From an uncultured Verrucomicrobiota bacterium (GTDB lineage Bacteria > Verrucomicrobiota > Verrucomicrobiia > Opitutales > Opitutaceae): DNA of 52,155 nucleotides. This document shows, piece by piece, positions 21,697 to 49,913 of the stretch; position 1 is the first letter of the stretch; each line of letters starts with the position of its first letter. The notes below the pieces were generated by a model that worked only from the letters and a program-made list of their open reading frames with translations, had not been told where the DNA came from and did no database searches. Position numbers and translations under genes: made by a program. Location of the stretch: assembly GCA_913058185.1 (NCBI GenBank), contig CAJXQX010000022.1, positions 1 to 52,155 of the forward strand, read 5' to 3'.

Positions 21697-23022
21697 TCAA
21701 ACCGCTGGGGTGATATCTAATCCCCGCATGGTCCCTGTGGCGGAGGCGAAAGTATCCGATTCGATGCCCATGCTCTGTAGCATGCTTACAAACAGATTGG
21801 GCAACGGGTAGTTTTGTTTGCGGTCAAATTTTAGATGTTGGCCGTGCTTGATTCGACCACCAGCCAACAGAATGGGCATGTTGCTGGTGGTGTGTTTGTT
21901 GGCGTCGCCGAAGTTGCTGCCATACATGACGAGCGTGTTGTCGAGCAGGGACGACCCATTTTCGTCGGACGATTGCAGCTGATCGAGGAATCCATTTAGC
22001 AGGCTCATGTGCGACTGATCGATCGACTCGAGTTGGGCGAGTTTATCGGGATTCTTCCCGTGATGTGAAAGGTTGTGGTAACCGTCGGATATGTTCTCAC
22101 CGGGCACCGATATAGTGGGGGAGTTATTACTATCCAACAGCAGGGTGATGCAACGGGTGGAATCCGACTCGAATGCCAGATGAGCCATGTGATACATCAG
22201 TCGCGCCTTTTCTAAGTAGGCACTCGGAGACTGCGGATCGATCGGCATGGGCACGTGGGTTTGCGGCTTGGGGGTTCGGTGCCACTCCCGTGCTTTGACC
22301 ATGCGCGTTTCCAAATCGCGCACTGCGGTCTGGTATTGATCCATCCGCTCGCGATCTTCTGCTCCCAGCCGATGGTGAAGGGCGCGCGATTGGTCCGCCA
22401 CAGTGTCCATGATGCTTTCGCCCAGTTCCAGTTTGCGCATCTGACGGGTGACTTCGGTTTCGGATCCCTGAAGGAAAAGCTGACGATAGACGTTGGACGC
22501 TTCGCCTTCGCAAGGGATCAGCACCCCGGATCGTGTCCACGAAAGACTGCGTCGCCCTTGTTTCGGGTTAACTCCCAGCGTGAGAGACGGGAAGCGCGTT
22601 TTATCACCAATCGTTTCGGCGATGTATTGATCGAGAGAAATGGAGTTATGGAACCCACCACTGGCCGGATGGGGCGCGGCGGTTAAGAATGAAACGTCAG
22701 AGGAATGAGACCCGTCGACACCGGGGTGAGATACGCCACTGAAAACTGAAAAATCCTGGCGATGTTTGGCCAAGATTTCGAGGTAGGCCGGAAGTTGAAA
22801 ATCGCGGCCCGCGGCGGTGGGAAAAAAGTGTTCGGTAAGCAACCCGAGATTGTTGCAGATCCCGATCATCCGCTGGGGACGTTGGGTGGTTTGGGCGACT
22901 GGTTTTGCGCCGTGGCCAAAAATGGGTGTCATGGCGTTCAGCAGCGGTAGACCCAAAGCGACGCCCATGCCGCGCAACATTTGTCGCCGACTGATATGGT
23001 TTTCCGAGGTCGAGATATACAT
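21697..23022 (-). CDS. DUF1552 protein (Tat leader)
   Basis: A 441-residue DUF1552 family protein, found mainly in Planctomycetes, Verrucomicrobia and myxobacteria and almost always beside DUF1592-type cytochromes. The N-terminus carries a twin-arginine motif (HISRRQMLRGMGVALGLPLL). Typical family stretches are 'RMIGICNNLGLL', 'FSGVSHPGVDGSHSSDVSFL', 'SISLDQYIAETIG', 'SLTLGV' and 'LLDNTLVMYGSNFGDANKH', which recall the sulfatase / alkaline-phosphatase superfamily end region. Its biochemical role is unknown. It begins 16 bases after the stop of the DUF1592 gene, so the pair is co-transcribed and probably forms a periplasmic complex. Confidence 0.95.
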   Translation of the reverse strand: MYISTSENHISRRQMLRGMGVALGLPLLNAMTPIFGHGAKPVAQTTQRPQRMIGICNNLGLLTEHFFPTAAGRDFQLPAYLEILAKHRQDFSVFSGVSHPGVDGSHSSDVSFLTAAPHPASGGFHNSISLDQYIAETIGDKTRFPSLTLGVNPKQGRRSLSWTRSGVLIPCEGEASNVYRQLFLQGSETEVTRQMRKLELGESIMDTVADQSRALHHRLGAEDRERMDQYQTAVRDLETRMVKAREWHRTPKPQTHVPMPIDPQSPSAYLEKARLMYHMAHLAFESDSTRCITLLLDSNNSPTISVPGENISDGYHNLSHHGKNPDKLAQLESIDQSHMSLLNGFLDQLQSSDENGSSLLDNTLVMYGSNFGDANKHTTSNMPILLAGGRIKHGQHLKFDRKQNYPLPNLFVSMLQSMGIESDTFASATGTMRGLDITPAV

Positions 23023-23038
23023 GGGGGCAGAGAGAGGA

Positions 23039-31726: not shown

Positions 31727-33322
31727 TTAGGAACCCAGCACGTGGAGGCTCACGTAAAGGGCCAACGTAATTAAGACCACCGCCCCCGAGATTATTCTGG
31801 CTGGCCGCCATTCTTCGTTATTGGAAGCGAATCCTTCAGCCGCGACAGCGACCTTGGAGTCCGGTTTGATCTTCCCGGCGACGAGCATGAAAATGCAGAG
31901 GAAAGCGAAGTTAAGCGCGGCGAAATGCAACCAGTGCATCGGGGTGCCAAAGAAGGTTTCGCCCATACCCCAGGTGAAGTAGCAATAGGTGGCCATGCCG
32001 CCCAAGAGAGAGATCTTCGCGGCCCACGCGGGAACCGAACGCGAGACCATGGCCATAATGACCACCGCCAGAATCGGGATATTAAAGATGGCTCCCAGTT
32101 TCTTCATCAGCGTGAACAAGCCATCGGGGGCATTGGCGATCACCGGAGCGAGGCACATCGCAAAAATGGCGAGGAACATACCAAAGATCTTGCCGATCAA
32201 AACCACCCGTCGGCCATCAGCTTTGGGGTTGATAATACCCTTATAAATATCGAGACCGAAGAGGGTGGAACAGCTGTGGAGCGCACTGTTGAATGAACTT
32301 AGAATCGCGCCAAACATCACGGCTCCAAAGATGCCAGCGAGAGAAGGAGGAAGCACCTCGGCGACGAGGCGCGGATAGGCCGAATCTCCGTTGCCCAGTT
32401 CGCTACCGAACATTTCGATGGCGATAATGCCGGGGAGGACCAAATAGAGAGGTCCGAGAAGTTTGAGTCCCGCGGCGGCGAGCACACCCTTTTGACCTTC
32501 GGCCAGGGACTTGGCGCCGAAGGTGCGCTGCACGATGGCTTGGTTGGTGCACCAGTAGTAGACGTTGATGAGCAACATTCCGGTGAAGAGGGTGCTGAAT
32601 GGGATAGCAGAATCTGACTCTCCGATCGGGCTGATCTTTTCGGTCTGATTGGTGAGGATGCGATCCAGGCCGTCCCCCATACTGCCGTCGCCCAACGCTA
32701 TAAGGCCGAGGATCGGAATCGCGAGACCACCGATGAGGAGGCCGATGCCATTGATCGTGTCGGAAACCGCGACGGCTTTCAGGCCACCGAAGATAGCGTA
32801 AATCGAACCAACGATGCCGATGGCCCAGACCATGATCCAAATCGAGCCGGTTTCACTCACGCCCAGCAACTCATCAACCTTGAACAGCCCGTTCATTCCG
32901 AGCGCGCCGGAGTAGAGCACGAAGGGGAGGAAATTGAGCACTAGAAAGACTAGAAAAAGTCCGCTTAGAATTTGCCGGGTCTGCGCATCAAATCGCTTTT
33001 CCAGAATCTGAGGCACCGTGGTGATGCCACTATTCCAATAGCGGGGAAGAAAATAGAGTGCCAGAACGACGAGCGCTAGGGCCGCGACGACTTCCCATGC
33101 CATCACGATCGTGCCACTGAGGTAGGCACTGCCGTTGAGCCCGATGAGTTGCTCCGTCGAAAGGTTGGTGAGCATCAACGATCCCGCTACGACAAACCAA
33201 GGGAGGCTCTTGCCCGCGAGGAAGTAATTATCCGCGTCACCGTGATCGTCCTGGCGCGTGCGCCACCAGGAGATGAATCCGACCAATGCCGTGAAAAGAA
33301 TAAATGAGAGGAATGAGATCAT
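31727..33322 (-). CDS. Sodium:solute symporter (SSS/SGLT-like)
   Basis: A 531-residue inner-membrane transporter of the solute:sodium symporter family with about 13-14 helices. Family marks are the early 'DNYFLAGKSLPWFVVAGSLMLTNLSTEQLIGLNGSAY' (like bacterial sodium/galactose transporters), 'GLKAVAVSDTINGIGLLIGG' and 'FGAVMFGAILSSFNSALHSCSTLFGLDIYKG' (helix 8 region with the sodium-site Ser pair). The close match to the vSGLT-like pattern in helix 1 suggests a sugar substrate. It is convergent with the LacI gene, and its promoter region carries a LacI-type site at 33404-33415. It may import the sugar or sugar sulfate handled by the leaderless sulfatase. Confidence 0.93.
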   Translation of the reverse strand: MISFLSFILFTALVGFISWWRTRQDDHGDADNYFLAGKSLPWFVVAGSLMLTNLSTEQLIGLNGSAYLSGTIVMAWEVVAALALVVLALYFLPRYWNSGITTVPQILEKRFDAQTRQILSGLFLVFLVLNFLPFVLYSGALGMNGLFKVDELLGVSETGSIWIMVWAIGIVGSIYAIFGGLKAVAVSDTINGIGLLIGGLAIPILGLIALGDGSMGDGLDRILTNQTEKISPIGESDSAIPFSTLFTGMLLINVYYWCTNQAIVQRTFGAKSLAEGQKGVLAAAGLKLLGPLYLVLPGIIAIEMFGSELGNGDSAYPRLVAEVLPPSLAGIFGAVMFGAILSSFNSALHSCSTLFGLDIYKGIINPKADGRRVVLIGKIFGMFLAIFAMCLAPVIANAPDGLFTLMKKLGAIFNIPILAVVIMAMVSRSVPAWAAKISLLGGMATYCYFTWGMGETFFGTPMHWLHFAALNFAFLCIFMLVAGKIKPDSKVAVAAEGFASNNEEWRPARIISGAVVLITLALYVSLHVLGS

Positions 33323-33524: not shown

Positions 33525-34940
33525 TCATTCCGTCGGTGCTTCGTGACCGTCGAAAGCCAGAGACAGATCGTAGACTTCACCATCACAAACGGGTTCGTGG
33601 GCATCATCCGCGAACTGCTTCATTTTGGTCAGAATTTCAGGATGTTCGGCGGCGAGGTCGTTGAGCTCCTCGATATCGTGGTCGAGGTGGTAGAGTTCCC
33701 ATGCAGCGTCTTTTTTCGGTTGAATGGCTTTCCATTGATCCATCCGCACGGCCCGACTTTTGAAGTCCTCCCAATACAGGTATTTATGGCGGCGCTGCTC
33801 GTGGTTGACGACATCGCGGCCTAAGAGCGTGGGCACCAAGGTGTATCCGTCCGTGTTGGCAGGAGCGGCGATCCCGGCGAATTCAGCCAGGGTAGGCATG
33901 ATGTCCGGGAAATAGCCGAGGTGTTCGGAGACGCGGCCGGGATCAATCCGGCCGGGGTAGCGGACCATGAACGGAATGCGCAAGCCGCCTTCGTAGAAGT
34001 TGCCCTTGCCGCCGCGGAAACGTTCCCCGGTGCGGGGATTTAGATTGGGAGCAAGGAAGCCATGCGGGTAGCGCTCGTTTTGGAAATACGGCTGACCTCC
34101 GTTATCTCCGGACAGGAAAACAATGGTATTATCGTCGATATCCAATTCCTGAAGTAGATCCAAGATTTCGCCGACCTGCCGGTCCGCCATTTCAACCATC
34201 GCGGCATACATCTGCGGATCGTGGGTGCCTTTCTGATTCTCGGCTTTCCAGTCTTTATCTCGATATTTGATCCACGCGGGATCGTCTTCCGGCATACCCC
34301 AGTGGCCGTGGGGCGGGGTCCAGGCGAGATAGGCAAAGAAGGGGCGATCATGGTTATTGCGGATGAACTCCATGCTCTCCTCATGAATGAGATAGTGCGA
34401 AAACGTTTCGCCGTGATGAAGGTCGCCCGTATTTCCCGCGAGAGGCACGCGTTCGCTATTCCGAATCAGGTAGCGAGGATAATAAGTGTGGGCATGCACC
34501 TGATGGTAGTAGCCAAAAAACGTATCAAAACCCTGCCGTTCTGGAACGCCGGACGAGCCGACGTCGCCCAGTCCCCACTTCCCAAAACCGCCGCTGACGT
34601 AGCCGGCCGGTTTAAGCATCTCGGCGATCGTAAAATCCTCGTCGCGGATGGGCGCGGTTCCTTTGTTGCCCCGCACGGTCGTGTGGCCGCTGTGTTGCCC
34701 CGTCATCAATACATTGCGGGTCGGCGCGCAGACGTTGGCGCCGGCGAGAAACTGCGTGAACCGAACGCCCTCATCTGCGATCCGATCCATGTTGGGAGTA
34801 TCCAAAATCCGGTGCTCCATACCGGAAGATTCGAAGTAACCCCATTCGTCCAACATCATGTAGATGATGTTCGGTGGACGGGCTTCGAGTCCTAGTGCGC
34901 CACAGCAGCAGAGCAGAATAGTGGTGATGATCTTTTTCAT
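33525..34940 (-). CDS. Exported sulfatase (esterase-coupled)
   Basis: A 471-residue type I sulfatase with a short leader (MKKIITTILLCCCGALGLEA). Cys71 in CAPTR is the formylglycine precursor. The first metal site reads 'MMLDEWGYFE', with Glu replacing the second Asp. Other marks are 'GGFGKWGLGDVGSSGVP', 'AYLAWTPPHGHW', 'TIVFLSGDNGGQPYF' and 'RGGKGNFYEGGLRIPFMVRYP'. The start overlaps the esterase gene stop by 4 bases, making it the last gene of a long minus-strand run. Whether the cluster of three Cys residues in the leader marks a lipoprotein is unclear; 'CCCGA' is not a clean lipobox. Confidence 0.95.
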   Translation of the reverse strand: MKKIITTILLCCCGALGLEARPPNIIYMMLDEWGYFESSGMEHRILDTPNMDRIADEGVRFTQFLAGANVCAPTRNVLMTGQHSGHTTVRGNKGTAPIRDEDFTIAEMLKPAGYVSGGFGKWGLGDVGSSGVPERQGFDTFFGYYHQVHAHTYYPRYLIRNSERVPLAGNTGDLHHGETFSHYLIHEESMEFIRNNHDRPFFAYLAWTPPHGHWGMPEDDPAWIKYRDKDWKAENQKGTHDPQMYAAMVEMADRQVGEILDLLQELDIDDNTIVFLSGDNGGQPYFQNERYPHGFLAPNLNPRTGERFRGGKGNFYEGGLRIPFMVRYPGRIDPGRVSEHLGYFPDIMPTLAEFAGIAAPANTDGYTLVPTLLGRDVVNHEQRRHKYLYWEDFKSRAVRMDQWKAIQPKKDAAWELYHLDHDIEELNDLAAEHPEILTKMKQFADDAHEPVCDGEVYDLSLAFDGHEAPTE

Positions 34941-35989
34941 TTTTGAGCAGAGAGTTGAGCGGCAGTATCCTGGGCGGCTTTAGTGGGTATGCCCGGTTTT
35001 TGGAGAAATCCGAGATCACGGAACCAGTCGATGAATCGATCGGGCCAGGTGCCGAACGGAATTCTGCCTCGGTCAGTAATGCCTCCGCCATGCCCACCGT
35101 TGCCGTAAAGGTGTAGTTCGATGTTAGGCACTTCGAGGCGCAGCATCGCCATGTAATAGTCGGTTGACCAAATCGTATGACGTTTGCCGCCGTAACTGGC
35201 CGAAGCGATGAAGGCGGGAGGCACGTCGATCGGTATCGGGGCTTTGGGGTTGGCGGTCAGGATGGATGGGCCGGTGTAAAGCAGTCCGACAAAATCGGGT
35301 CGTGAACTAATCCCCGCGAGCGGATCATCGGTGGAGTTGTTTTCCGCATCGAAAGCCGGGTAATTGAGCGCGGTGCCAGTAGCCACTTCGCCGCCGGCGG
35401 AAGAACCGAAGACTCCGATTTTGAGAGGATCGATGCCCCACTCATCGGCGCGACTGCGGACGAGCCGGATGGCTTGAAGTGCATCGTTCACGGCGTCGAC
35501 TTCGGCACTATAGCCGTCATCCCGTAGGCGGTAGCGGAGAATGATTGTCGTGATACCGTAGTTGTAGAAGTAGGGCACCATGTCGGTGCCGGCCGCGGCG
35601 ATACCCAGGTGATTATGGCCTCCTCCCGACATTAGAATAATGGCTGCTCCGGTGCTGAGGTTGCGTTCGACGGGATGAATCTCGATCGAAGGAACATGCA
35701 CGTTCTTGAGACGCTGAATCCGTCCCGGAACTTGTCCGTGCATTTCGTAGATCTCATCTTCGCGAACGCGCGATGCGTTGAGAAATGACGAGTCCGGGGG
35801 GAATACCGGCATCACGATTCCACCGGGTAATAGCGCCTGGGGTTGGTAAGGCTCGTCCGTCGCGACCGCGGGGCCGGGAATCATTTGCGGAGTCGGAGTG
35901 GGGGCCGCGCCGGTGAGCTGGCCGGCGAACAGCATGGTGAGGGTCGCAAGGCCGGAAATTAACCGGTGTGGCGAGAGAACTGGAGACAT
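34937..35989 (-). CDS. Exported alpha/beta-hydrolase, probable carbohydrate esterase
   Basis: A 350-residue exported serine hydrolase of the esterase/lipase type. The leader (SGLATLTMLFAGQLTGAAP) precedes the catalytic fold. The oxyanion region is 'AIILMSGGGHNHLG', the nucleophile elbow G-S-S-A-G puts Ser197 in place ('IGVFGSSAGGEVATG'), and the likely catalytic His is in 'LYGNGGHGGGI'. The pattern is that of BD-FAE or acetyl-xylan-esterase-like enzymes that strip acyl groups from glycans. It sits between DUF1552 (21 bases upstream) and a sulfatase (4-base overlap), so it probably de-acetylates the same sulfated glycan. The acyl group is inferred. Confidence 0.88.
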   Translation of the reverse strand: MSPVLSPHRLISGLATLTMLFAGQLTGAAPTPTPQMIPGPAVATDEPYQPQALLPGGIVMPVFPPDSSFLNASRVREDEIYEMHGQVPGRIQRLKNVHVPSIEIHPVERNLSTGAAIILMSGGGHNHLGIAAAGTDMVPYFYNYGITTIILRYRLRDDGYSAEVDAVNDALQAIRLVRSRADEWGIDPLKIGVFGSSAGGEVATGTALNYPAFDAENNSTDDPLAGISSRPDFVGLLYTGPSILTANPKAPIPIDVPPAFIASASYGGKRHTIWSTDYYMAMLRLEVPNIELHLYGNGGHGGGITDRGRIPFGTWPDRFIDWFRDLGFLQKPGIPTKAAQDTAAQLSAQK

Positions 35990-36010
35990 GGAATACAGAG
36001 GTGTTTCAGG

Positions 36011-37375
36011 TCAGATACTCGATAGTAAACCCGTGGAGTCACCGAGGCGGGGCAGGTTTTGCACACCCATTTTATCTGCGAGACTGAGGAACATGTTGGT
36101 CGCAGGCTGGGATCCACTCTTCACGTAGCGTCCGGGGGTGAGTTGGCCGCCACCGTGGCCGGCCAAAACAAAGGGCAGGTTATCGTGGGAGTGACGGTTG
36201 CCATCGGCGTTTCCGCTGCCGAAAACAATCATCGAGTTGTGCAGCAAGGACTGACCATCGACGTCATTGACCGCATCCAAGCGTTGGAGGAAGCGGGCAA
36301 ATCGTTCGATATACCATCGATCAATACGCGCCACCTTTGCGATGCGATCTTGGCGGTTCTGATGGTGGGTGAGTTCGTGGTGGCCTTCGGGAATTCCAAT
36401 CTCTTCGTGCGAGCGATTGTCGCCATCGTGGGCCGTCATGAGCGTGGCAATACGCGTGGAGTCGGTTAGGAATGCCAAGAGCATCATGTCATACATGATG
36501 TCCATATGTTCGCCATGGGTGAACGGCACCCCGGCTGGAGTGGCGAGATCAGGGTCGGCGGTCGAGCCGAACTGTTCGAGGTTTTCGATGCGTTGTTCTA
36601 CTTCCCGAATGCCAGTGAGATATTGGTCGAGTTTCTCGCGATCGGAATGGCCGAGACGTTCCTGCATCTGACGGGCGTCGGTCATAACGAAATCCAAAAT
36701 CGAGCGATGATTTGCCATACGCCGTTGCGCGTTGGCGGAGCGATCGCCGTGCTCGCCCTCGCCGAAGAGCCGTTCGAATACCCGCCGCGGATTGGCCTCG
36801 GGCGTCATGGGATTAGTCGGACTCTTCCAGGCCAAGTTGTATTGATAGGCGCAGGAATAGCCGGTGTCACAGGTGCCGGTGCGGCGGTTGGTGACACAAC
36901 TCATTTCCAACGATGGAAAGCGAGTGGTGTGTCCGACCTCGCGCGCGATGGCCTGGTCGATGGAAACGCCAGCGCGGATATCGGTTGCGCTCTTTTTGAT
37001 CCGCACGCCGGTGAGGAATACACTATTGCCGCGGGCGTGATCACCGCCGCCATCGGATCCGGGGTTAGCGTTGAGTTGGTCCAGTCCACTGAGGACTTGC
37101 ACGGAGTCGCGCAGCGACGCGAGTGGTTGGAGTGTGTGCTTGAATCGGAAATCGGTCAGGCCGCCTTCGGGCCACCAAAGGTCAGGGATCGCCCCGTTGG
37201 GGAAAAAGACGAAGGCGGTTCGAAGCGGAGCGCCCGTAGCGGTTGTCGCGGCGGCACGCGTGCTGGCGGCGGCCATGAGAGAGTTCGGCACCAACGAGTG
37301 GAAGGCGGGGAGGGCCATGGTGGCCCCGAGGCCTTTTAGGAAATGCCGGCGGTTGAGCGGATTGGTAAGAGGCAT
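36011..37375 (-). CDS. DUF1552 protein, second copy (Tat leader)
   Basis: A 454-residue DUF1552 protein. The N-terminus carries a twin-arginine leader (PLNRRHFLKGLGATMALPAF). Family stretches are 'AFVFFPNGAIPDLWWPEG', 'VLSGLDQLNANPG', 'GDHARGNSVFLTGVRIKK', 'VSIDQAIAREVG', 'SLEMSCVTNRRTGTCDTGYSCAYQYNLAWKSP' and 'LLHNSMIVFGSGNADGNRHSHDNLPFVLAGHGGG'. It starts 4 bases after the DUF1592 stop and ends 21 bases before the esterase start. The paired Cys residues in the 'RRTGTCDTGYSCAYQ' region are an obvious difference from the copy at 21697-23022. The family function is unknown. Confidence 0.95.
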   Translation of the reverse strand: MPLTNPLNRRHFLKGLGATMALPAFHSLVPNSLMAAASTRAAATTATGAPLRTAFVFFPNGAIPDLWWPEGGLTDFRFKHTLQPLASLRDSVQVLSGLDQLNANPGSDGGGDHARGNSVFLTGVRIKKSATDIRAGVSIDQAIAREVGHTTRFPSLEMSCVTNRRTGTCDTGYSCAYQYNLAWKSPTNPMTPEANPRRVFERLFGEGEHGDRSANAQRRMANHRSILDFVMTDARQMQERLGHSDREKLDQYLTGIREVEQRIENLEQFGSTADPDLATPAGVPFTHGEHMDIMYDMMLLAFLTDSTRIATLMTAHDGDNRSHEEIGIPEGHHELTHHQNRQDRIAKVARIDRWYIERFARFLQRLDAVNDVDGQSLLHNSMIVFGSGNADGNRHSHDNLPFVLAGHGGGQLTPGRYVKSGSQPATNMFLSLADKMGVQNLPRLGDSTGLLSSI

Positions 37376-37379
37376 AACT

Positions 37380-39884
37380 TCAGAGGTTGGTGAGATTGGG
37401 GTGACGGGTTTGTTGAAATGGGGCGGATGAAACGATCGCGCGAAAGAGGGCAGAGGGGCGGCCGTCGGACGATTTCAAGGTTTCGACCAAGTGATCGACG
37501 GTCTCGACGTCGTAGTATTCCAAACCACGTCCGAGAGCATAGGTAAGAAGTTTTTCACTGAAACAGTAATAGAAGTCAGAAAGGCGTTCGGTAGCTAGAA
37601 CGTGCTTAAATTCCTGGATCGAGTCAAAGGTCTCTCCAGTCACTAGTTGACCCGCCATGTCGATGGGTTGGTTGAGCTCGGACTCACGCCATCTGCCCAT
37701 GGCGTTGAAGTTCTCCAGCGCGAGTCCTAAGGGATCCATGCGTTCGTGGCAGGATGAGCAAAGTGGGTCCTCTCGATGCATTGCCAGTGTCTCGCGGAGA
37801 CTGAGGGCGGCCAGATCATCGGGATTGGTGATGTCTTCCAGAGCCGGGATGTTCGGAGGTGGAGCGGCTGGCGGTGTCCCCAGGATGTTTTCCAAGATGA
37901 ACACGCCACGTTTCACGGGTGACGTTCGGGTGGGGTTGGAGGTGTAGGCGAGTAACGTGCCCTGCGTCAGGACACCGCCGCGCGGGCTGCCGGCGGGGAG
38001 CTCGACCCGGCGCATGTGCCTTCCTTTCACGTCGGGAATGCCGTAGTGGTTAGCGAGATGCTCGTTGAGGAACGTGTAATTACTATCGATGAGTTCGGCA
38101 ATCGGACGGTCTTTGCGGATCACGTATTCGAAGAACATTTCAGTTTCTTGCCGCATGGGAGTTGTCTCCTGCCGTTTCAACTGTGGCCGTTTTATGTTGT
38201 AAGCGGCCCGCACGATGGCCCGCGTGCGGTCGTAGTCAGCCTGCTGTTCGGCGGTGCGCTGGTTCTCGGGAATTTCTCGCAACTTCGAATATTCTTTTTG
38301 CGCGATGAAAAGCGTGGGATCGGGATTGTCCCGCAGCCAAATATCCAATGAACTGACGTTGACCGATTCGATGTCGCGGGCGTGCAGCCATTGGCCCGCG
38401 AAGTTCTTCATGAAGTTGTCGGAGCGCGGATCCTGCATCATGCGCGCAATCTGTTGTTCTAGGTTCGGGCGCAGCTGATTGTTCTCCGCCAATTCCATTA
38501 ACTCCGCATCGGGCATGGTGGACCAGAGGAAGTAGGATAAACGGGAAGCCAACGAGAAATCGTCAATTTCTGGATGGCGGGTGTCTTGAGTAGAAGCGCT
38601 TCGGATAGCTTCTTCACGAAAAAGAAAACGAGGTGACGCGAGCACCGCAGTCATGGCCTGAGCCATCCCGCTTTCGAAGTTGAAGCCATCTTGAGCGGCA
38701 ACCTCTTCAGCCATATTCACGAGTCGTTTTAGGGTGATCGCATCGACCGGGCGGCGAAACGCACGGGCAGCGAACTTGCTGAGGAGTTGATTTGTATAAG
38801 CGTGCCGCGCTGCGGGGGCTTGAGGCACGTCTCCCGGAAAGAATTGGGCATAATTCTCAGGCCGCACCCAATGTGAACGATCGAAGGGACCTCGAATGGT
38901 GAGGTGATCCACCCGCATTTTAAGACGTTTAATTTTCTCCGGGTCGACGGACACGGGAACGACTTCGAATGAGAACTGATGCTCTCCGGGAACCCAGTCA
39001 TAATCGAACGTGTATTCGAAGATTTTACTCGAGGTGTTTTCGAACTCTTGATCGATCTTTACCTCGTTATCGATCCGGAAGATCAGACGGCATTTGCTAT
39101 AATCGAAACCTTGGAAACTGACAAAACTCTTGGGCGAAATTTTCAGCCCAATTTGATACTTACCGGGGCGATCAACCCCGATTTGCGCGAAGCGGGTTGA
39201 GGCGTCGTAAAATGAAAGTTGGAGGTATTCGTCCGAGCGATCGGCTGCGTTGGGTGCCGGGGAAAACAGCTTGGCTAATTTTTCACCTTCGAGTTTTCGC
39301 TCGGGCATGATCCAAGGCTCAAGCGGCACGGCCTGGCCGACGATGTTGATGGCGGCATCGAAGTATTTTTCTAACAGCATGGGCGAAAGCGTCAGGATCT
39401 CGCCGATGTTATCAAAACCCTCGCCGGTGTTGTCGGGCGGGAAGGCGTCGCGGGTATCGAAGTTAACGCCCATCAGATCGTATATCGTATTCTGATATTC
39501 GATTCGATTGAGCCGTTGCACCGTGAGTTGGCCCGGATCGGGATTCGCGGGATCGATGCCGAAAGGCCCCGTCTTGATCCAAGTTCGTAAATTCTTCCGG
39601 TCTTCATCGGACGGGAGGGCCTCTTCTCGAGGCGGCATGATGTGGCTGCGCGTGTTGCGTAGGACCCGAAGCCACAGGTCAGTATCCGCAATGGTTTCAG
39701 CAGTGAATTCGTCGAGCGTGACACCGCCTTCGTTGGTGCCTAGTCCGTGGCAGTCATAGCAGAACTCGTCTAGGATCGGTTCAACGTCCGAGCGGAACGA
39801 AGCCATGATGTCCGCCGTTGCATGCAGGGGAAGGGATCCTGCGAACAGGCCTATCGTTAGCAGCACTGGACGATGTCGCTTCAC
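37380..39884 (-). CDS. DUF1592-type exported c-type cytochrome-like protein, second copy
   Basis: An 834-residue member of the same family as the protein at 23039-25654, with the DUF1587-DUF1595-DUF1592-DUF1588-DUF1585 series. The leader is about residues 1-24. The first heme motif is CYDCH at 42-46, and a second CSSCH lies near the C-terminus ('CSSCHERMDPLGLALENFN'). Between 290 and 330 a beta-rich stretch ('FSFEVVPVSVDPEKIKRLKMRVDHLTIRGPF') may be a lectin-like insert. Other marks are 'TVQRLNRIEYQNTIYDLMGV', 'SLASRLSYFLWSTMPDAE' and 'GGVLTQGTLLAYTSNPTRTSPVKRGVFILENIL'. The start overlaps the stop of the upstream sulfatase by 4 bases, tying it to glycan desulfation. Confidence 0.95.
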   Translation of the reverse strand: MKRHRPVLLTIGLFAGSLPLHATADIMASFRSDVEPILDEFCYDCHGLGTNEGGVTLDEFTAETIADTDLWLRVLRNTRSHIMPPREEALPSDEDRKNLRTWIKTGPFGIDPANPDPGQLTVQRLNRIEYQNTIYDLMGVNFDTRDAFPPDNTGEGFDNIGEILTLSPMLLEKYFDAAINIVGQAVPLEPWIMPERKLEGEKLAKLFSPAPNAADRSDEYLQLSFYDASTRFAQIGVDRPGKYQIGLKISPKSFVSFQGFDYSKCRLIFRIDNEVKIDQEFENTSSKIFEYTFDYDWVPGEHQFSFEVVPVSVDPEKIKRLKMRVDHLTIRGPFDRSHWVRPENYAQFFPGDVPQAPAARHAYTNQLLSKFAARAFRRPVDAITLKRLVNMAEEVAAQDGFNFESGMAQAMTAVLASPRFLFREEAIRSASTQDTRHPEIDDFSLASRLSYFLWSTMPDAELMELAENNQLRPNLEQQIARMMQDPRSDNFMKNFAGQWLHARDIESVNVSSLDIWLRDNPDPTLFIAQKEYSKLREIPENQRTAEQQADYDRTRAIVRAAYNIKRPQLKRQETTPMRQETEMFFEYVIRKDRPIAELIDSNYTFLNEHLANHYGIPDVKGRHMRRVELPAGSPRGGVLTQGTLLAYTSNPTRTSPVKRGVFILENILGTPPAAPPPNIPALEDITNPDDLAALSLRETLAMHREDPLCSSCHERMDPLGLALENFNAMGRWRESELNQPIDMAGQLVTGETFDSIQEFKHVLATERLSDFYYCFSEKLLTYALGRGLEYYDVETVDHLVETLKSSDGRPSALFRAIVSSAPFQQTRHPNLTNL

Positions 39885-41329
39885 GGATCAGATTTTTCCG
39901 GGGAACTGGTCGTGACGTGTGGACGCCACTCGTTGGTGGGCTCGTAAGCACTGGAACCGTAATCCTGCCCCGCATGACTGAGTTGAACCTCGGCGAAGAA
40001 CGCGACGAGTTCGTGTTTCATGGCCGCAGCGAGTTGCGGATGAGCTGCTGCGAGGTTTTCGCTTTCATCTCGATCTTGGGAGAGATCATAAAGTTCCCCG
40101 GCAGGTAGGAGGAACTTGAAATTGTCCTTCACTAAAGATGAGATATTACCTTGGTAGCGAAAGGGGATAGCACGGTAGCGAGCTTTGGTTTGGCCTCGCA
40201 GAATCGGTCTGATATCTTCGCCGTCGAGAGCCCGTTCATCAGGCATAGTGTAGCCGACGATTTCGCGCACGGTGGAGAAATAATCCAAGGTCGACAGGGG
40301 CGTGTCTGAGGCGGATCCCGCTGAAATGTGGCCGGGCCACACCGCGAATGCTGGCACCCGCACCCCACCGTCGTAGAGCGCGCGTTTACGACCGCGCAGA
40401 CCATCGGTGGTGCCGACCCGACGATTAGCTGCTACTTTGCCTTCGGGCCCGTTGTCGGAGCAGAAAAAGATTAAGGTGTTCTTCAATACCCCGGCATCTT
40501 CCAGGGTCGTTACGATTCGTCCAACCTGTTCGTCCAACTCTGTAATACAGCCGTAGAAATGAGCGGCTTCGCCATGACCTTCGTATCGGGCGAGGTATTC
40601 GGGACCGGCCTCTATGTTTTCATGGGGGGCGTGAAACCAAACCACGGCGAGGAAGGGGTTTTCATCGGAGGCGGCTTGATTGATGAATGGCACGGCCCGG
40701 TCGACGACGACTCGGGCGGCTCCACCCAAAAGACTCGGATCGTTGCCATCGAGGGCGACACCATCGGCGTAAAAGGGGTTGTCTTTTGCCCGAGGACCAA
40801 CGCCAGGGTTCCAAGTGGTGACGGCCGATTCGGTTACGAACGATGTGTCATAGTCGCGCTCCCAAGGCGGTGAATAATTTAGATCGGGACGACGTTTGGG
40901 ACCCTTTGCGGTCATGGTCCGACTGAGCGTGCCGAGATGCCATTTCCCAAAGTGCCCCGTGGTGTAGCCCTGAGCTTTGAGCATGCGCGCCATCGTAATT
41001 TCCTGCGCCGGCAGATGACCGGCGTTAGCGTTAAACACGCCAAAACGATCGTGATGCCGACCGGTCAGGGCCGTGCCACGGGTAGGGGAACACACCGAGT
41101 TTCCCGCATAGAAATGGGTCAACGTCATCCCACGCTTAGACAGCGCGTCGAGATGCGGGGTCTGAATGATCGTGTTGCCGTTGAAGCCGGTGTCCCCGTA
41201 GCCGAGATCATCGGCCATGATCAGGATAATGTTGGGACGTTCGGGGGTGGTGGCGCCCGTCAGGGTTGAGCTTAGCGACAGGCTAAGTCCGAGAACCGTT
41301 AGACGAATTCCGAGGGTGAATCGATCCAT
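39881..41329 (-). CDS. Exported sulfatase (cytochrome-coupled)
   Basis: A 482-residue type I sulfatase with a leader (MDRFTLGIRLTVLGLSLSLS...). The first metal site is D40-D41 in 'ILIMADDLGYGDTG', and Cys80 in CSPTR is the formylglycine precursor. Further marks are 'GHFGKWHLGTLSRTM', 'VVWFHAPHENIEAGPEYLARY', 'LIFFCSDNGPEGK' and 'YDGGVRVPAFAVWPGHI', the usual order for arylsulfatase-like members. The stop overlaps the start of the DUF1592 cytochrome gene by 4 bases, and the upstream sulfatase ends 24 bases before it. The substrate is unknown; the tight overlap suggests that its product matters for the cytochrome pair. Confidence 0.96.
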   Translation of the reverse strand: MDRFTLGIRLTVLGLSLSLSSTLTGATTPERPNIILIMADDLGYGDTGFNGNTIIQTPHLDALSKRGMTLTHFYAGNSVCSPTRGTALTGRHHDRFGVFNANAGHLPAQEITMARMLKAQGYTTGHFGKWHLGTLSRTMTAKGPKRRPDLNYSPPWERDYDTSFVTESAVTTWNPGVGPRAKDNPFYADGVALDGNDPSLLGGAARVVVDRAVPFINQAASDENPFLAVVWFHAPHENIEAGPEYLARYEGHGEAAHFYGCITELDEQVGRIVTTLEDAGVLKNTLIFFCSDNGPEGKVAANRRVGTTDGLRGRKRALYDGGVRVPAFAVWPGHISAGSASDTPLSTLDYFSTVREIVGYTMPDERALDGEDIRPILRGQTKARYRAIPFRYQGNISSLVKDNFKFLLPAGELYDLSQDRDESENLAAAHPQLAAAMKHELVAFFAEVQLSHAGQDYGSSAYEPTNEWRPHVTTSSPEKSDP

Positions 41330-41353
41330 GGGGAGGGGAGGGTTGATGTTAGC

Positions 41354-42856
41354 TTAGCGGAACTGATCGTATTCAGGATTCACCTTTGCCTTGGAGAATA
41401 TCTCTTTCGAAATCCACAGATCGTAGGTGGCCTCGAGCTGGACGGCAGCCTCCTGCTGTTGGCCTTGATCGCCCGTTTCTTGAATCCAGGTGTCCAAGAT
41501 AGCGCGGTGACGCACGAGTTCGGTTTTGAATGCGACGTCATTGGCAAGATTGTGAATTTGGTGAGGATCGGTCGCGAGGTCGTATAACTCTTCCGCGGGG
41601 CGAGGGCCAAACCAGTGTTCGTCGAGGTAGGGCGAGAGTTTGCCCGCTTGGTGGAGTTTTTTCAGGTCGGCGACTGTGGGATGATTATCGCGGTATTGAG
41701 CCTGCAGCATAGCTCGGTCGAGGTAGCCGTTACGAATATAGCGGTATTCATCTGTGCGCACGGTGCGAATCTGGTCGATGGTGTAGTCGCAGCGATCGCG
41801 GGCGGAGATCATGTAAGATCTTTCCTGATACGAGTCGGCAAATAGATCCTGTCCATCCAAGTAGTCAGGCATGGCCGCGCCACCGAGGGAGAGTGTGGTG
41901 GCCGTGATGTCCAAAGCCGAAACGAGTTCGTCGCGAACCACCGAACTACCGATGGCAGGGTGGTTGCCTTTGACCATGAGCGGAATGTGCACGCCACCTT
42001 CGTAGCAGAACTGTTTGTGGCGGAGGGACTGGTTGTTGCCGTGGTCACTAAAGAAAAAGACGATGGTGTTTTCCATTTCCCCGTCGGCTTCGAGCTGATC
42101 GAGGATGGTTTGCACGCGAGCGTCAGCTCCGCGAACGGCATTGTAATGTTGAGTCCATGCCTTGCGGTGGTTGGGGGTCTCCGGGAAGTAAGGCGGTAAC
42201 GGCACGTCGTTGTCGGCGAGTTCTTCGCCTTCACGCACCCACTTGCTGTTGGCCTTACCGCCTTTGATTTCGATCTGACCGAACCAAGGCTGATCCTTAT
42301 CCGGGCGGGACTTCCAGGTCTGCCGGGTGATGGAGAGGTTGTGTTTTGCGTGGTTGCCCTGCCAACCGTTCATGCCGGGGACGTAGTCGTCTCTGTTGCC
42401 GGTTGAGTAAAGGTCACCTCGATCGTAGTGGAAATTGTAGTCATCCTTGCCGCTATTGAAGGTGTAGTAGCCGGCAGCCCGCATGAGTTCGGGCAATGTT
42501 TCCATGCCCTCAGGGAGATGGATGCGCAGCTCTTCGGGGACGACTTCGCCGTCGGTGGTGCGGCTGGAGCGATGTTGATGCGTGCCGGTGGTGGTCTGCA
42601 TGACACCGGTGATGATGGCGGAGCGACTGGCCGAGCAGACGGGGGCGGTGGCGAAGGCGCGGGTGAATAGCACGCCCTGAGCCGCGAATTTATCAATCGT
42701 CGGCGTGTGGCCGGCATTGATGGGGTCGCCGTAGCAACCCATGTAAGGGGAAAGGTCTTCGGAGAATATCCAGAGAATGTTGGGACGACGCATATCGGTG
42801 GCAGCAGCAGCGCTGAGCGAGATTACACCAAGCAGAAGAAGGCGGAGGAAGGTCAT
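41354..42856 (-). CDS. Exported sulfatase with CSASR motif
   Basis: A type I sulfatase of the heparan N-sulfatase-like group. I chose the ATG at 42856, which begins the leader (MTFLRLLLLGVISLSAAAA); a frame from 42901 adds 15 residues. The first metal site is 'ILWIFSEDLSPYMGCYGD' (E-D in place of D-D). Cys74 in CSASR is the formylglycine precursor, with Ala instead of the usual Pro at +2. Other marks are 'TFNSGKDDYNFHYD', 'TIVFFFSDHGNNQSLRHKQFCYEGGVHIPLMVKG' and 'AEELYDLATDPHQIHNLA'. It is the upstream sulfatase of the long minus-strand run and lies 125 bases after the stop of a symporter gene that may share its transcript. Confidence 0.95.
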   Translation of the reverse strand: MTFLRLLLLGVISLSAAAATDMRRPNILWIFSEDLSPYMGCYGDPINAGHTPTIDKFAAQGVLFTRAFATAPVCSASRSAIITGVMQTTTGTHQHRSSRTTDGEVVPEELRIHLPEGMETLPELMRAAGYYTFNSGKDDYNFHYDRGDLYSTGNRDDYVPGMNGWQGNHAKHNLSITRQTWKSRPDKDQPWFGQIEIKGGKANSKWVREGEELADNDVPLPPYFPETPNHRKAWTQHYNAVRGADARVQTILDQLEADGEMENTIVFFFSDHGNNQSLRHKQFCYEGGVHIPLMVKGNHPAIGSSVVRDELVSALDITATTLSLGGAAMPDYLDGQDLFADSYQERSYMISARDRCDYTIDQIRTVRTDEYRYIRNGYLDRAMLQAQYRDNHPTVADLKKLHQAGKLSPYLDEHWFGPRPAEELYDLATDPHQIHNLANDVAFKTELVRHRAILDTWIQETGDQGQQQEAAVQLEATYDLWISKEIFSKAKVNPEYDQFR

Positions 42857-42981
42857 GAGGTGTAGTAAGTTTAGGGCTAACAGGTCAGGGTTTAGCGACA
42901 CGCGCAGAAAGGCACGAGGATCGAAATACCTTTTCGAGCAAAAGCATACTGAATTCTACGACCTAAGGCCGGAAAATTATG

Positions 42982-44691
42982 CTAGTGAGTGCGTTTGACC
43001 GCCCAGGTGATACCAGCGGCAATGCCCAGCAGAATGATCGAAAACCCCGCGAGGGTTTTCGAGTCAGATGAAGTGAAGATCGCCAGTCCGCCCATCACCG
43101 TAGCAATTATGCCCAAGGTGATCGCGACCATGACTGCTGGCAGCGTTGAGGACTCGCGGGCGGGTTGCTCGTGGAAATTGCGGGCCGACTCTTCGATCCG
43201 GTCCCAGCCCGGGTGTTGATTTTTGGACAAAACCTCGAGGAAGATCAGCACAAAGAATGGAACGAGGATGCCGGCACAAAGATCGGCGACCCGGCGGTTG
43301 TCTGCTACCCAATCGCAGAGAGAGCTCAGGAAACTCACGTCCACCAGGAATCCATGGGTGGAGAAGCCAAATTTCACCACGAGAGCGGAGAGAAAACCAA
43401 CAATCGCAGTCGTCCAGACCGCGCTCATTCCGATCTTGCGAGAGAACAGTCCCCAGATTGTCGGCAATACCAGCGGGCCCGTGATCAAGGTCGTGATATC
43501 CAGGATGAAACGGGTGTATCCGTAACGGGGGATGAGCAACGAACTGGCCACGACAACGCAGCCCAAAATGACTGTGACAATACGCCCAACCCTCACGACC
43601 TGCGCATCGGCGGCGGTGCGGTTGATGAAGCGTTGATAGACCTCGGTGGTGAACGCTCCGGCAAACACGTTGAGTTGAGTGGTCGCCATACTCGCGGTGG
43701 CCGAAGCCATGGCGGCGATCATAAGTCCGAGCATGCCGGGTGGGAGCACCGCTTGGCAGGCGAGAATGTAGGCCTGTTCGTGGTCGGCGTCAGGATTGAT
43801 CACGCGATAGACGAGTGGCGGGATCATCCAAAATAATGGACTGATCAAATACATCGCCCCGAAAATATAGGCGGCCTTTTTGGCGTCGCGCGAGGTGGGC
43901 ACGCAGGTGAAACGCTGCACGAAGGCCCACTCGCCACCGATCTTGAAGAAATGAATAATGATCCAGCCCGTTAGGAACCATCCGGTAAAATCGTCCGCGA
44001 CCATTGACGTGAAGCCCTCTGGAGTTTGATCGATGAAAGCGTTCCAACCGCCGACCTGAGCCAAAATCAATGGAACGACGAATAGCACCGAGACCACGAG
44101 GATCACGAACTGGAGCACGTCGGTCATGAGCACCGCCCACAGTCCGCCGGCGAAGGTGATCGCGATCACAATCAGACAGAGGATGATGGAGGTCAGCGGA
44201 ACGGAGAGATGCCCGGTCGCGGCGTCGGCCAGCAGATGACCATCCGAGAGGGGGGTGAGGGCCGCGACGATCATGGAAAGCGCGTAGATGGCACCGCCCA
44301 GCGAACCAATATTTACGGCACCTTGGAACCACGTGTAGAATTGCACCACCGCCCCACCGAAGCGAAGTTGTAGAAACTCAGCGGCGGAACTGACGCCCAT
44401 CGCTCGCCACCTTCCGGCCACAAACCAGCCAACAAACAAAGCCGCCACGCCGTAGCACATGTTGATGGCGACGGCGACGAAACCGTAGCGGTAGGCGATG
44501 CCCCCCCACACCACGAAGGTTCCGGCCGAGAACATCGTCATAAAACCCGACAATCCGGAGACCCACCACGGCGACTGACCGCCCGCGGCGAACATATCGG
44601 AGGACGACTTCATTCGCCCGGCGAAAACCATGCCGGCGGCGACGATGCCGACGAGGTAGATAACGATGACAAAGTAATCGACGGATTGCAT
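42982..44691 (-). CDS. Sodium:solute symporter, second copy
   Basis: A 569-residue SSS-family transporter with about 13-14 membrane helices. Family marks are the N-terminal 'YFVIVIYLVGIVAAGMVFAGR', the 'DMFAAGGQSPWWVSGLSGFMTMFSAGTFVVWGG' region, 'FAGGLWAVLMTDVLQFVILVVSV' (helix 6), and 'MLGLMIAAMASATASMATTQLNVFAGAFTTEVYQRF' (helix 8 with the sodium-site Ser/Thr). It has an extended polar segment near the C-terminus. It differs clearly from the copy at 31727-33322, so the two should carry different solutes. The gene starts the minus-strand run that continues with sulfatases, cytochrome, DUF1552 and esterase, and is divergent from a sulfatase pair. Confidence 0.93.
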   Translation of the reverse strand: MQSVDYFVIVIYLVGIVAAGMVFAGRMKSSSDMFAAGGQSPWWVSGLSGFMTMFSAGTFVVWGGIAYRYGFVAVAINMCYGVAALFVGWFVAGRWRAMGVSSAAEFLQLRFGGAVVQFYTWFQGAVNIGSLGGAIYALSMIVAALTPLSDGHLLADAATGHLSVPLTSIILCLIVIAITFAGGLWAVLMTDVLQFVILVVSVLFVVPLILAQVGGWNAFIDQTPEGFTSMVADDFTGWFLTGWIIIHFFKIGGEWAFVQRFTCVPTSRDAKKAAYIFGAMYLISPLFWMIPPLVYRVINPDADHEQAYILACQAVLPPGMLGLMIAAMASATASMATTQLNVFAGAFTTEVYQRFINRTAADAQVVRVGRIVTVILGCVVVASSLLIPRYGYTRFILDITTLITGPLVLPTIWGLFSRKIGMSAVWTTAIVGFLSALVVKFGFSTHGFLVDVSFLSSLCDWVADNRRVADLCAGILVPFFVLIFLEVLSKNQHPGWDRIEESARNFHEQPARESSTLPAVMVAITLGIIATVMGGLAIFTSSDSKTLAGFSIILLGIAAGITWAVKRTH

Positions 44692-44989
44692 GGGGTAGGG
44701 AGGAGGGAGAGCCGAAATACAGTGGACGTAAACGGTTGAGTTGAGCGACGAAGGTTAACCGTTGAGTTGACTGACCTAGGTCGGGAGGCCTTCCACTATT
44801 ATCGGATGTTGGGAGCTTATCTTAAAATCCTAACGGATATCTTTTCACTCGCGGCGGAGCTAACATCTCGAATCAGCGAACGCTATAGTAGAAAGAGACG
44901 GGAACCCTTGGCGGATCTACGTGATTCTGCCGGACTCAAAGCGGCCAAGGATTCGCCCGTTTAATAAACCACTCTACCTCAATTTCCCT
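44692..44989. promoter_or_regulatory. Divergent control region between symporter/sulfatase gene runs
   Basis: About 300 bases serve a minus-strand run (44691 to 33525) and a plus-strand pair (44990 to 48258). A 17-base direct repeat at 44728-44744 and 44754-44770 lies close to the symporter start. No credible coding frame is present: the short open frame at 44767-44964 overlaps a possible upstream extension of the sulfatase and has no features. Confidence 0.6.
44728..44770. repeat. Tandem operator-like direct repeat GTAAACGGTTGAGTTGA
   Basis: Copies at 44728-44744 (GTAAACGGTTGAGTTGA) and 44754-44770 (GTTAACCGTTGAGTTGA) match in 15 of 17 bases and are 26 bases apart, about 2.5 helical turns. 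The AAACGGTT core resembles the LacI-type sites near 28740 and 30475. The location, 37 to 80 bases upstream of the symporter start, fits a regulator site controlling the divergent operons. Confidence 0.5.
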
Positions 44990-49760: not shown

Positions 49761-49913
49761 TGCCCGCGAAAGGACCGAACTGAGGGTGATTACACGAGAT
49801 GATTATTGGTCAATGGTTGAGTGGGCGCGTGTTTGTCAGGACAAATTACGTTAATTCGGCCAGCGACCGGATTCTGATCGAAAACCATCTCTGGCCGTTT
49901 ATTGCTAGGGTCT

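Follow-up and report, generated by a model that had tools for sequence, protein, structure and literature searches.

In a 52,155-nucleotide stretch from an uncultured Verrucomicrobiota bacterium of the Opitutaceae (GenBank contig CAJXQX010000022.1, hereafter the window, one contig of a source genome of 4.09 Mb in 159 contigs), a gene for a DUF1592-type (PSCyt3) cytochrome adjoins a gene for a DUF1552 protein within a run of seven minus-strand genes. The best explanation of this arrangement, which is put forward tentatively and with rather less than even confidence, is that the pair encodes a cognate periplasmic redox module that acts on glycans and is here deployed with sulfatases, and that the seven genes make up an operon-like segment of a utilization locus for sulfated glycans in an Opitutaceae-type bacterium.

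Pairing and co-divergence of the cytochrome and DUF1552 genes

The two genes of the pair, and the parts of their products that are discussed below, are as follows; counts out of 109 refer to the set of pairs defined further on.

37380..39884, minus strand: DUF1592-type (PSCyt3) c-type cytochrome protein with two heme motifs (834 aa; PSCyt1, DUF1587, DUF1595, DUF1592, DUF1588 and DUF1585 domains)
39747..39761, minus strand: heme motif 1, CYDCH, residues 42-46
38877..39311, minus strand: predicted beta sandwich like a carbohydrate-binding module (CBM), residues 192-336 (Foldseek and VIA on the predicted model)
37746..37760, minus strand: heme motif 2, CSSCH, residues 709-713
36011..37375, minus strand: DUF1552 (HXXSHH) protein with a twin-arginine translocation (Tat)-type N terminus (454 aa; PF07586; predicted alkaline-phosphatase/sulfatase fold)
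37037..37039, minus strand: His113, opposite the sulfatase catalytic Cys in a permissive alignment; His in 108/109
36365..36382, minus strand: HHELTH, the HXXSHH motif of the family, with His333 and His337 kept in 108/109 and 109/109
36191..36193, minus strand: His395, kept in 108/109

The cytochrome gene of the run is followed on the same strand by the DUF1552 gene after a gap of 4 bases, and a second DUF1592-DUF1552 pair is located in the window (21697..25654, minus strand), with a sulfatase gene (25761-27269) just upstream at a distance of 106 bp. PSCyt3 was matched 12 times in the source genome and DUF1552 13 times, one DUF1552 match being truncated by a contig end. All 12 PSCyt3 genes have an adjacent DUF1552 gene on the same strand, with six pairs in each gene order; 7/12 pairs overlap and 10/12 are within 20 bp, as measured from our own open reading frame (ORF) starts. 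Genes were called as the longest ORF of at least 100 aa from the farthest start, with profile hits taken first, so all gene overlaps given here are upper bounds. Across the 57 genomes of the class that were sampled, DUF1552 was found in 8, including the source genome, and PSCyt3 exceeded its cut-off in the identical 8, with one additional match below the cut-off. These counts are at odds with a preliminary description of this DNA, which had called such pairs abundant in bacteria of the Planctomycetes-Verrucomicrobia-Chlamydiae (PVC) group.

The two proteins have also diverged together. The distances between DUF1552 proteins and the distances between their partner cytochromes correlated with an r of 0.953 over 109 pairs, a value that is uncorrected for species relatedness, while the maximum of 1000 permutations was 0.23. 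The source genome contributed 12 of these pairs, relatives 39 and named contigs 58, and pairs with a DUF1552 protein of less than 380 aa or a cytochrome of less than 600 aa were left out. Among the 12 pairs of the source genome r was 0.86, and since this value comes from a single genome, species history is not its cause.

Several loci showed unusual forms of the pair. An Opitutaceae metagenome-assembled genome (MAG) has a tandem array of at least four head-to-tail DUF1592-DUF1552 pairs (L132:1273-17348), and another locus (L090) has three pairs close together. In one relative (G006, locus L040), the DUF1552 gene is split in two with a stop and is accompanied by a short cytochrome fragment, which reflects either decay or an assembly error.

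Predicted folds and conserved residues

The DUF1552 model was made with sequences from 51 of 80 loci, hand-picked, beside the window's own sequence (L091, which has a stop codon, and L089 were left out), and had a predicted local distance difference test (pLDDT) value of 85.1, with low values at residues 1-40. The 50 rows listed by the VIA structure comparison consisted of nucleotide pyrophosphatases, sulfatases, phosphatases and phosphonate hydrolases, and the top match had a Z of 17.2 and a root-mean-square deviation (rmsd) of 3.4 over 242 aligned residues. Several of these entries, although not titled as such, we take to be members of the alkaline phosphatase superfamily. The sulfatase-like fold predicted for the DUF1552 protein itself had been overlooked in the preliminary description. 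A Tat-like RR motif was found in 104/109 DUF1552 proteins. The sequence search of solved structures with DUF1552 returned weak, unrelated-looking matches only (best E 0.15).

Profile comparisons of the 109 DUF1552 proteins with 50 sulfatases were performed with hhalign. At the default setting residues 353-439, the sole confident part, were aligned, and Gly388 was placed on the sulfatase metal Asp; at a permissive setting, in which both proteins were spanned, the catalytic Cys was matched by His113 and the DD pair by Pro59-Asn60. A global alignment was also tried and was discarded as meaningless. The modeled secondary structure has a strand at 52-57, a helix at 83-91, a strand at 92-99 and a helix from 113, and by our own reading of the sulfatase fold this predicted order suits the placement of His113 on the Cys.

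Thus, the DUF1552 proteins have the predicted fold and a weak profile similarity in common with the S1 sulfatases and the alkaline phosphatase superfamily, but differ from the S1 sulfatases in lacking the catalytic Cys and the metal Asp at the aligned positions. Cys occupied the catalytic position in 50/50 of the sulfatases compared. In the metal-Asp column (position 388, within the confident part of the alignment), Asp was found in 0/109 DUF1552 proteins and Glu in 1/109, compared with Asp in 49/50 sulfatases, and the DD pair of the first sulfatase strand is replaced, mostly by PN. Asp391, three residues past the metal position, is present in 77/109. Neither the formylglycine motif C-x-P/A-x-R at the catalytic position nor the S-D-N/H-G metal Asp was found in DUF1552. 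The bare C-x-P/A-x-R pattern occurs elsewhere (near residues 136-244) in 20/109 of the proteins and is absent from the window copy; at L028:9756-11162 and in its relatives it is located in a Cys-rich loop (residues about 157-176), either by chance or as a second site. In addition to the histidines listed above, Asp140 is likewise conserved in 108 to 109 of the 109 proteins. Judging from the model and these replacements, DUF1552 is very likely a protein of predicted sulfatase fold that lacks formylglycine-sulfatase activity.

It is quite improbable that DUF1552 instead acts as a hydrolase within the alkaline phosphatase superfamily, attacking for example a phosphate, phosphonate or sulfate ester through an unusual nucleophile, with a separate or regulatory role for the cytochrome. 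The predicted fold would suit such an enzyme, a shifted metal ligand is possible given Asp391, and the homologous DUF1501 proteins described below have an acidic residue in their GEFGRT motif (11/13) near the metal position. Yet the aligned metal Asp is absent in all 109 proteins and the DD pair is replaced, and this explanation leaves the strict coupling to a protein with two heme motifs unexplained.

The cytochrome protein exceeded the Pfam cut-offs for all six of its domains. Its two heme motifs support its preliminary description as a CxxCH protein, and its signal-like N terminus predicts export. Exactly two CXXCH motifs are present in 103 of the 109 cytochrome proteins, three in 3 and one in 3. 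C42, C45, H46 and M83 were kept in 107/109 rows, the remaining 2 being gapped; heme motif 2 was conserved in 108/109, and His703 (106/109) and Tyr614 (105/109) were near-invariant. The N-terminal domain is weakly akin to bc1 cytochrome c (profile comparison, E 0.005), and because the Met83 MP motif aligns with that protein, the first heme is likely His/Met-ligated, with Met83 as its second ligand. Searches of solved structures by sequence returned only weak cytochrome c matches for the cytochrome protein, and the profile of its subfamily had no matches with an E of 1 or less.

The cytochrome model was made with 50 complete ORFs of 780-960 aa beside the window's own, from loci that contain 77 PSCyt3 genes, and had a pLDDT of 90.5. 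The best Foldseek match to residues 192-336 was 7ehg (E 8.8e-05), entries of CBM35, CBM36 and CBM6 were among the best, and the structure comparison gave a Z of 10.1 and an rmsd of 3.3 over 119 aligned residues. Jelly rolls that are not CBMs scored equally against these residues, the jelly-roll fold being common. From the modeled fold we infer that this domain may bind sugar.

A parallel arrangement was observed for DUF1501 and PSCyt2. In the source genome, DUF1501 gave 13 matches of nearly full length and PSCyt2 gave 14, and by coordinates 13/14 of the PSCyt2 matches are within about 5 kb of a DUF1501 match. A region of about 16 kb (G000:C3:7370-22752) contains two DUF1501-PSCyt2 pairs and one DUF1552-PSCyt3 pair. 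DUF1501, which we take to belong to the Pfam alkaline phosphatase clan, shows homology to DUF1552 with an hhalign E of 2.5e-15 (probability 98.5%) and is also related to the sulfatases (E 1.6e-08, probability 95.5%). Next to PSCyt2 (DUF1549-DUF1553) it resembles DUF1552 in its Tat-type N terminus, its homologous sequence and its cytochrome neighbor, but has GEFGRT (11/13) and WDxH (13/13) motifs where DUF1552 has GSG and HXXSHH. In the alignment of the two families, His113 and His395 of DUF1552 fall on an NH motif (pattern in 9/13) and a GRDH motif (12/13) of DUF1501, respectively, and HXXSHH is offset by one residue from WDxH. The PSCyt2 and PSCyt3 proteins can likewise be aligned with each other (E 1.2e-11, probability 97.4%), and this alignment is clearest over the N-terminal cytochrome domain. 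By our own reading of these alignments, DUF1552-PSCyt3 and DUF1501-PSCyt2 appear to be versions of one two-component design.

A broader proposal, which we consider doubtful, is that DUF1552 and DUF1501 form one repurposed sulfatase-fold superfamily in which the nucleophile position has become His and, in DUF1552, the metal site would be rebuilt around invariant histidines. Each would be locked to its own multi-domain heme-c protein, and together they would represent an undescribed class of periplasmic sugar oxidoreductases, with about 25 variants in the source genome placed beside differing hydrolases (esterases, sulfatases) for different glycans. Because the sulfatase Cys is placed differently in the DUF1501 and DUF1552 alignments and WDxH is offset by one residue, our confidence in this proposal was lowered slightly.

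The seven-gene run and the neighbors of the pair

The other genes of the run, and the symporter gene that follows it, are listed below.

42982..44691, minus strand: SSF-family sodium/solute symporter, first gene of the run (569 aa; PF00474)
41354..42901, minus strand: sulfatase with CSASR motif and signal-like N terminus (515 aa; PF00884)
39881..41329, minus strand: sulfatase with CSPTR motif, 4-base overlap with the cytochrome gene (482 aa; PF00884)
34937..35989, minus strand: BD-FAE-type alpha/beta-hydrolase esterase with signal-like N terminus (350 aa; PF20434 and PF07859)
33525..34940, minus strand: sulfatase with CAPTR motif, 4-base overlap with the esterase gene (471 aa; PF00884)
31727..33322, minus strand: second SSF symporter, 202 bp downstream of the run (PF00474; NCBIfam NF007790 above cut-off)

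The ORF coordinates and Pfam matches confirmed the families, order and spacings given for the seven genes in the preliminary description, with gaps of 80, 24, -4, 4, 21 and -4 bp in order, and this spacing supports its view of a single, operon-like gene run. The second symporter gene may be part of the same transcription unit. Both the sulfatase domain and a C-x-P/A-x-R motif are present in all three sulfatases of the run, and the esterase, whose gene is located directly after the DUF1552 gene, resembles pectin and xylan acetylesterases at scores below the cut-off. Tightness as such was dropped as an argument, since it is ordinary for the source genome: of 326 control junctions (206 same-strand and 120 opposite), 90 joined genes on one strand no more than 25 bp apart, and the longest tight run in 400 kb of control sequence had 6 junctions. 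Promoter and terminator scans were near chance (7 versus 6.6 expected and 17 versus 12.1 expected) and were uninformative on the transcript. The region at 44692-44920, which separates the run from a divergent plus-strand run with two sulfatase genes, is a possible shared control region.

Ten sulfatases are encoded in the window, as are glycosidases of GH29 (fucosidase) and GH27 (galactosidase), a TonB plug protein and a 3-keto-disaccharide hydrolase, and these genes support the setting in sulfated-glycan breakdown that had been proposed for the run. These surroundings would fit a sulfated glycan with fucose or galactose, which is a putative choice of sugar. The gene at 20143-21552, beside the second pair, has a likeness to BT_2158-type glycoside 3-dehydrogenases (269 bits; cut-off 750), and with the 3-keto-disaccharide hydrolase gene at 49902-50690 it makes a 3-keto-glycoside pathway in the locus possible.

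The neighbors of the pair were compared in three sets, namely 12 pairs of the source genome, 42 pairs of relatives and 72 pairs of the closest subfamily, using sulfatase and esterase profiles built in this analysis. The subfamily set was reduced to 65 after correction, in which 5/72 pairs were recognized as tandem-array artefacts and L080 was dropped as identical to L062. In the source genome, a sulfatase was the immediate neighbor of 5/12 pairs compared with 5/58 close control gene pairs drawn from 20 other stretches of that genome (p 0.010), and was within 5 kb of 7/12 pairs compared with 14/58 controls (p 0.025). When genes at least four genes away in the same loci were used for comparison, the difference was not significant (5/23 flank slots versus 9/71, p 0.23). 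In relatives (42 pairs; 2/78 flank slots, p 0.74) and in the closest subfamily (65 pairs; 1/116, p 0.76), sulfatases were no more frequent than in the background. A sulfatase within 5 kb was found for 9/42 pairs of relatives and 1/72 of the subfamily, and the counts for a same-strand sulfatase no more than 100 bp away were 1/12 in the source genome (the pair of the run studied here), 2/42 in relatives and 0/72 in the subfamily. The linkage to sulfatases emphasized in the preliminary description therefore stands as some enrichment in the source genome, and does not extend to relatives or the subfamily; the 100-bp counts likewise give no general enrichment. With flanks at background level in both of these sets, sulfatases were ruled out as the general partner of the pair.

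The numbers of sulfatases per genome were also compared. The source genome is sulfatase-rich, with at least 151 matches (150 of 192 candidates scored), and among the sampled genomes the median was 19.5 in the 8 with the pair, source included, versus 5 in the 49 without it (p 0.044), counts near 33 being lower bounds. A genome of the same family combines 13 DUF1552 matches with 2 sulfatase matches, and one of the same genus combines a single DUF1552 match with at least 81 matches to sulfatases. The nearest neighbors of the window copy in the DUF1552 tree are two Opitutaceae copies (L078 and L079), neither of which has an adjacent sulfatase; at L078 a sulfatase is 5.6 kb away.

These results bear on the possibility that the pair serves as a dedicated step in the breakdown of sulfated glycans, as proposed in the preliminary description, and acts only with sulfatases. 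Such a role would agree with the 4-base overlap with a sulfatase gene in the run, the immediate neighbors in the source genome, the sulfatases within 5 kb of some relatives' pairs, the greater number of sulfatases in pair-bearing genomes, and a published statement on the neighborhood of these cytochrome genes (PMC5615132). It is nevertheless improbable, because relatives and the closest subfamily show no enrichment, the source genome shows no significant difference from genes of the same loci, relatives can have many DUF1552 copies with 2 sulfatases or a single copy with at least 81, and the two nearest tree relatives of the window copy have no adjacent sulfatase. The position of the pair beside sulfatases looks like a local arrangement.

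Esterases are commoner and more regular neighbors of the pair than sulfatases. The three sets were pooled into 68 adjacent same-strand genes within 150 bp, from which sulfatase-, DUF1552- and PSCyt3-labelled genes and genes under about 200 aa had been excluded; PF00756 was found in 11 and BD-FAE in 7, so that esterases make up about 18/68 if the two groups do not overlap. Both families are absent among the 25 listed of the 121 families matched by 68 background genes; one tannase/feruloyl esterase is listed there, and single esterase cases could lie beyond the 25. With the built profiles, esterases occupied 3/23 flank slots in the source genome, 8/78 in relatives and 7/116 in the subfamily, compared with 0/71, 2/216 and 2/358 background genes, respectively. 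All 18 of these were on the strand of the pair, 13 downstream and 5 upstream. The built profiles were partly seeded with flanking genes, and the Pfam scan of 68 and 68 genes is the unbiased test. Six of the PF00756-type neighbors (L028, L034, L036, L037, L062 and L072) are from one genus and apparently represent one inherited locus.

Other neighbors were also observed. A long gene is located directly after the DUF1552 gene at L022:7759-9240, L063:5815-7296 and L073:3-1073, with a 4-base overlap in two of the three; these loci are a separate subfamily of the pair that is common to three genomes of the genus. The long gene of L022 encodes an ankyrin-repeat protein, and such proteins account for 3/68 flanking genes. 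A Phycisphaerales MAG has a PAP2/vanadium-chloroperoxidase-like gene 51 bp after DUF1552 (L110:9423-11033).

Relation to known systems and proposed mechanism

In freshwater Verrucomicrobia, PSCyt2 and PSCyt3 genes are usually located beside two different unknown families, sulfatases are often near PSCyt genes in some of the genomes, and a role in carbohydrate use was suggested; nothing was known of the function of planctomycete-type cytochromes as of 2017 (He et al. 2017, PMC5615132). From word counts, we infer that the family next to PSCyt3 is DUF1552. As far as its passages on these genes go, the PSCyt3 loci are like the window in having a fixed neighbor and some nearby sulfatases. The preliminary description had spoken of an undescribed system, which goes too far given that the fixed neighbor, the sulfatase neighborhood and the carbohydrate idea are already in those passages. 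Those passages give neither a fold nor residues for the partner, and the present analysis adds its predicted fold, its conserved residues and the co-divergence of the two proteins; the predicted fold, the residue replacements, the homology with DUF1501, the two heme motifs and CBM-like domain of the cytochrome and the co-divergence are new here. Some PVC genomes are rich in planctomycete-type cytochromes, and Rhodopirellula baltica is described as having 41 copies of each of two planctomycete-type cytochrome domains (PMC2754498, PMC6004670 or PMC7789669).

The literature searches covered mostly open literature and few subscription journals. Within this coverage, no paper was found that names DUF1592 and DUF1552 together, that joins DUF1501 with the term "alkaline phosphatase superfamily", or that treats the DUF1552 fold under its Pfam names or accessions.

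Cytochrome proteins with a domain labelled DUF1587 are described in Cellvibrio and Teredinibacter, and one figure legend on these proteins prints DUF1687 (PMC8981238, PMC12542752, PMC10916295). Cbp2D of Cellvibrio japonicus, which has cytochrome domains and DUF1587, is important for growth on cellulose (PMC8981238, PMC12542752), and its X183 domain can reduce lytic polysaccharide monooxygenases (LPMOs) (PMC8981238). In domain composition, Cbp2D and the X183-X132 proteins TERTU_2913 and TERTU_3803 share with the window protein a class I cytochrome domain, a DUF1587 stretch and a second CxxCH domain, and are linked to carbohydrate-binding or jelly-roll modules, as the window protein has its CBM-like domain. 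By Pfam and motifs, DUF1587 does lie between the class I cytochrome domain and the second CxxCH domain in the window protein. Unlike the X183-X132 proteins, the window cytochrome has no CBM2 or YceI domain by Pfam, and the passages on the X183-X132 proteins make no mention of a DUF1552 partner (PMC8981238, PMC10916295, PMC12542752). When the window cytochrome was compared with solved structures at E up to 10, there were 3 weak matches, with no X183 entry recognized among them.

In the favored mechanism, the DUF1592 and DUF1552 proteins would form a cognate periplasmic unit. The DUF1552 protein, exported by the Tat route, would carry a folded-in metal or other cofactor and would act on glycan fragments that are held near the cytochrome. 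The two hemes would deliver electrons to the respiratory chain or, in the opposite direction, supply the site with them. The sulfatases and the esterase of the run would remove sulfate and acyl substituents from those fragments, and the products would be imported by the symporters. The module may be general-purpose, placed beside sulfatases here without needing them. This mechanism draws on the operon-like layout, the constant pairing and co-divergence of the two genes, the two heme motifs, the weak kinship to bc1 cytochrome c, the CBM-like domain, the predicted DUF1552 fold with its Tat-like motif, the glycan setting, the adjacent esterases and the domain content of Cbp2D.

Several observations weigh against this mechanism. 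The correlation of distances over the 109 pairs lacks a correction for relatedness, and the joint duplication of both genes could also yield the correlation within the source genome. The support for the DUF1552 fold was modest both in Foldseek (best E 1.2e-05, with 4 matches at 0.001 or below) and in hhalign against the sulfatases (E 9e-05, probability 59%). The match of the Cys to His113 depends on the permissive hhalign setting, and the DUF1501-sulfatase and DUF1552-sulfatase alignments disagree on the stretch that corresponds to the sulfatase Cys. For the cytochrome, the Foldseek and VIA lists were filled by the CBM-like domain, and no known fold was matched there to the helical core that contains heme motif 2. 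Lastly, the X183 domains of Teredinibacter are reported to have given no electrons to its LPMO (PMC10916295).

The pair could also be an electron donor or scaffold for an oxidative enzyme encoded elsewhere, such as a copper monooxygenase or a sugar dehydrogenase of the 3-keto-glycoside type, with DUF1552 as a catalytically dead binding partner. The absence of the sulfatase Cys and metal Asp from the aligned positions of DUF1552 would be expected of such a partner, the reduction of LPMOs by the Cbp2D X183 domain (PMC8981238) is a precedent, and the window itself holds the glycoside 3-dehydrogenase-like gene (below cut-off) beside the second pair and the 3-keto-disaccharide hydrolase gene. However, the conservation of His113, His333, His337 and His395 in 108 to 109 of 109 proteins is unlike that of a dead scaffold, and His113 and His395 match the NH and GRDH motifs of DUF1501. 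In addition, no LPMO was among the 25 commonest flank families listed, and Gfo/Idh/MocA dehydrogenases and 3-keto-disaccharide hydrolases each flank the pair in 2/68 cases. We therefore regard this alternative as unlikely.

For the family, the neighbor counts correct the earlier sulfatase-centered view, with esterases as the more regular neighbors. The predicted fold, the residues available for mutation, the fixed partner and the link to the Cellvibrio and Teredinibacter proteins make the function of these cytochromes a question that is answerable with a few purified proteins.

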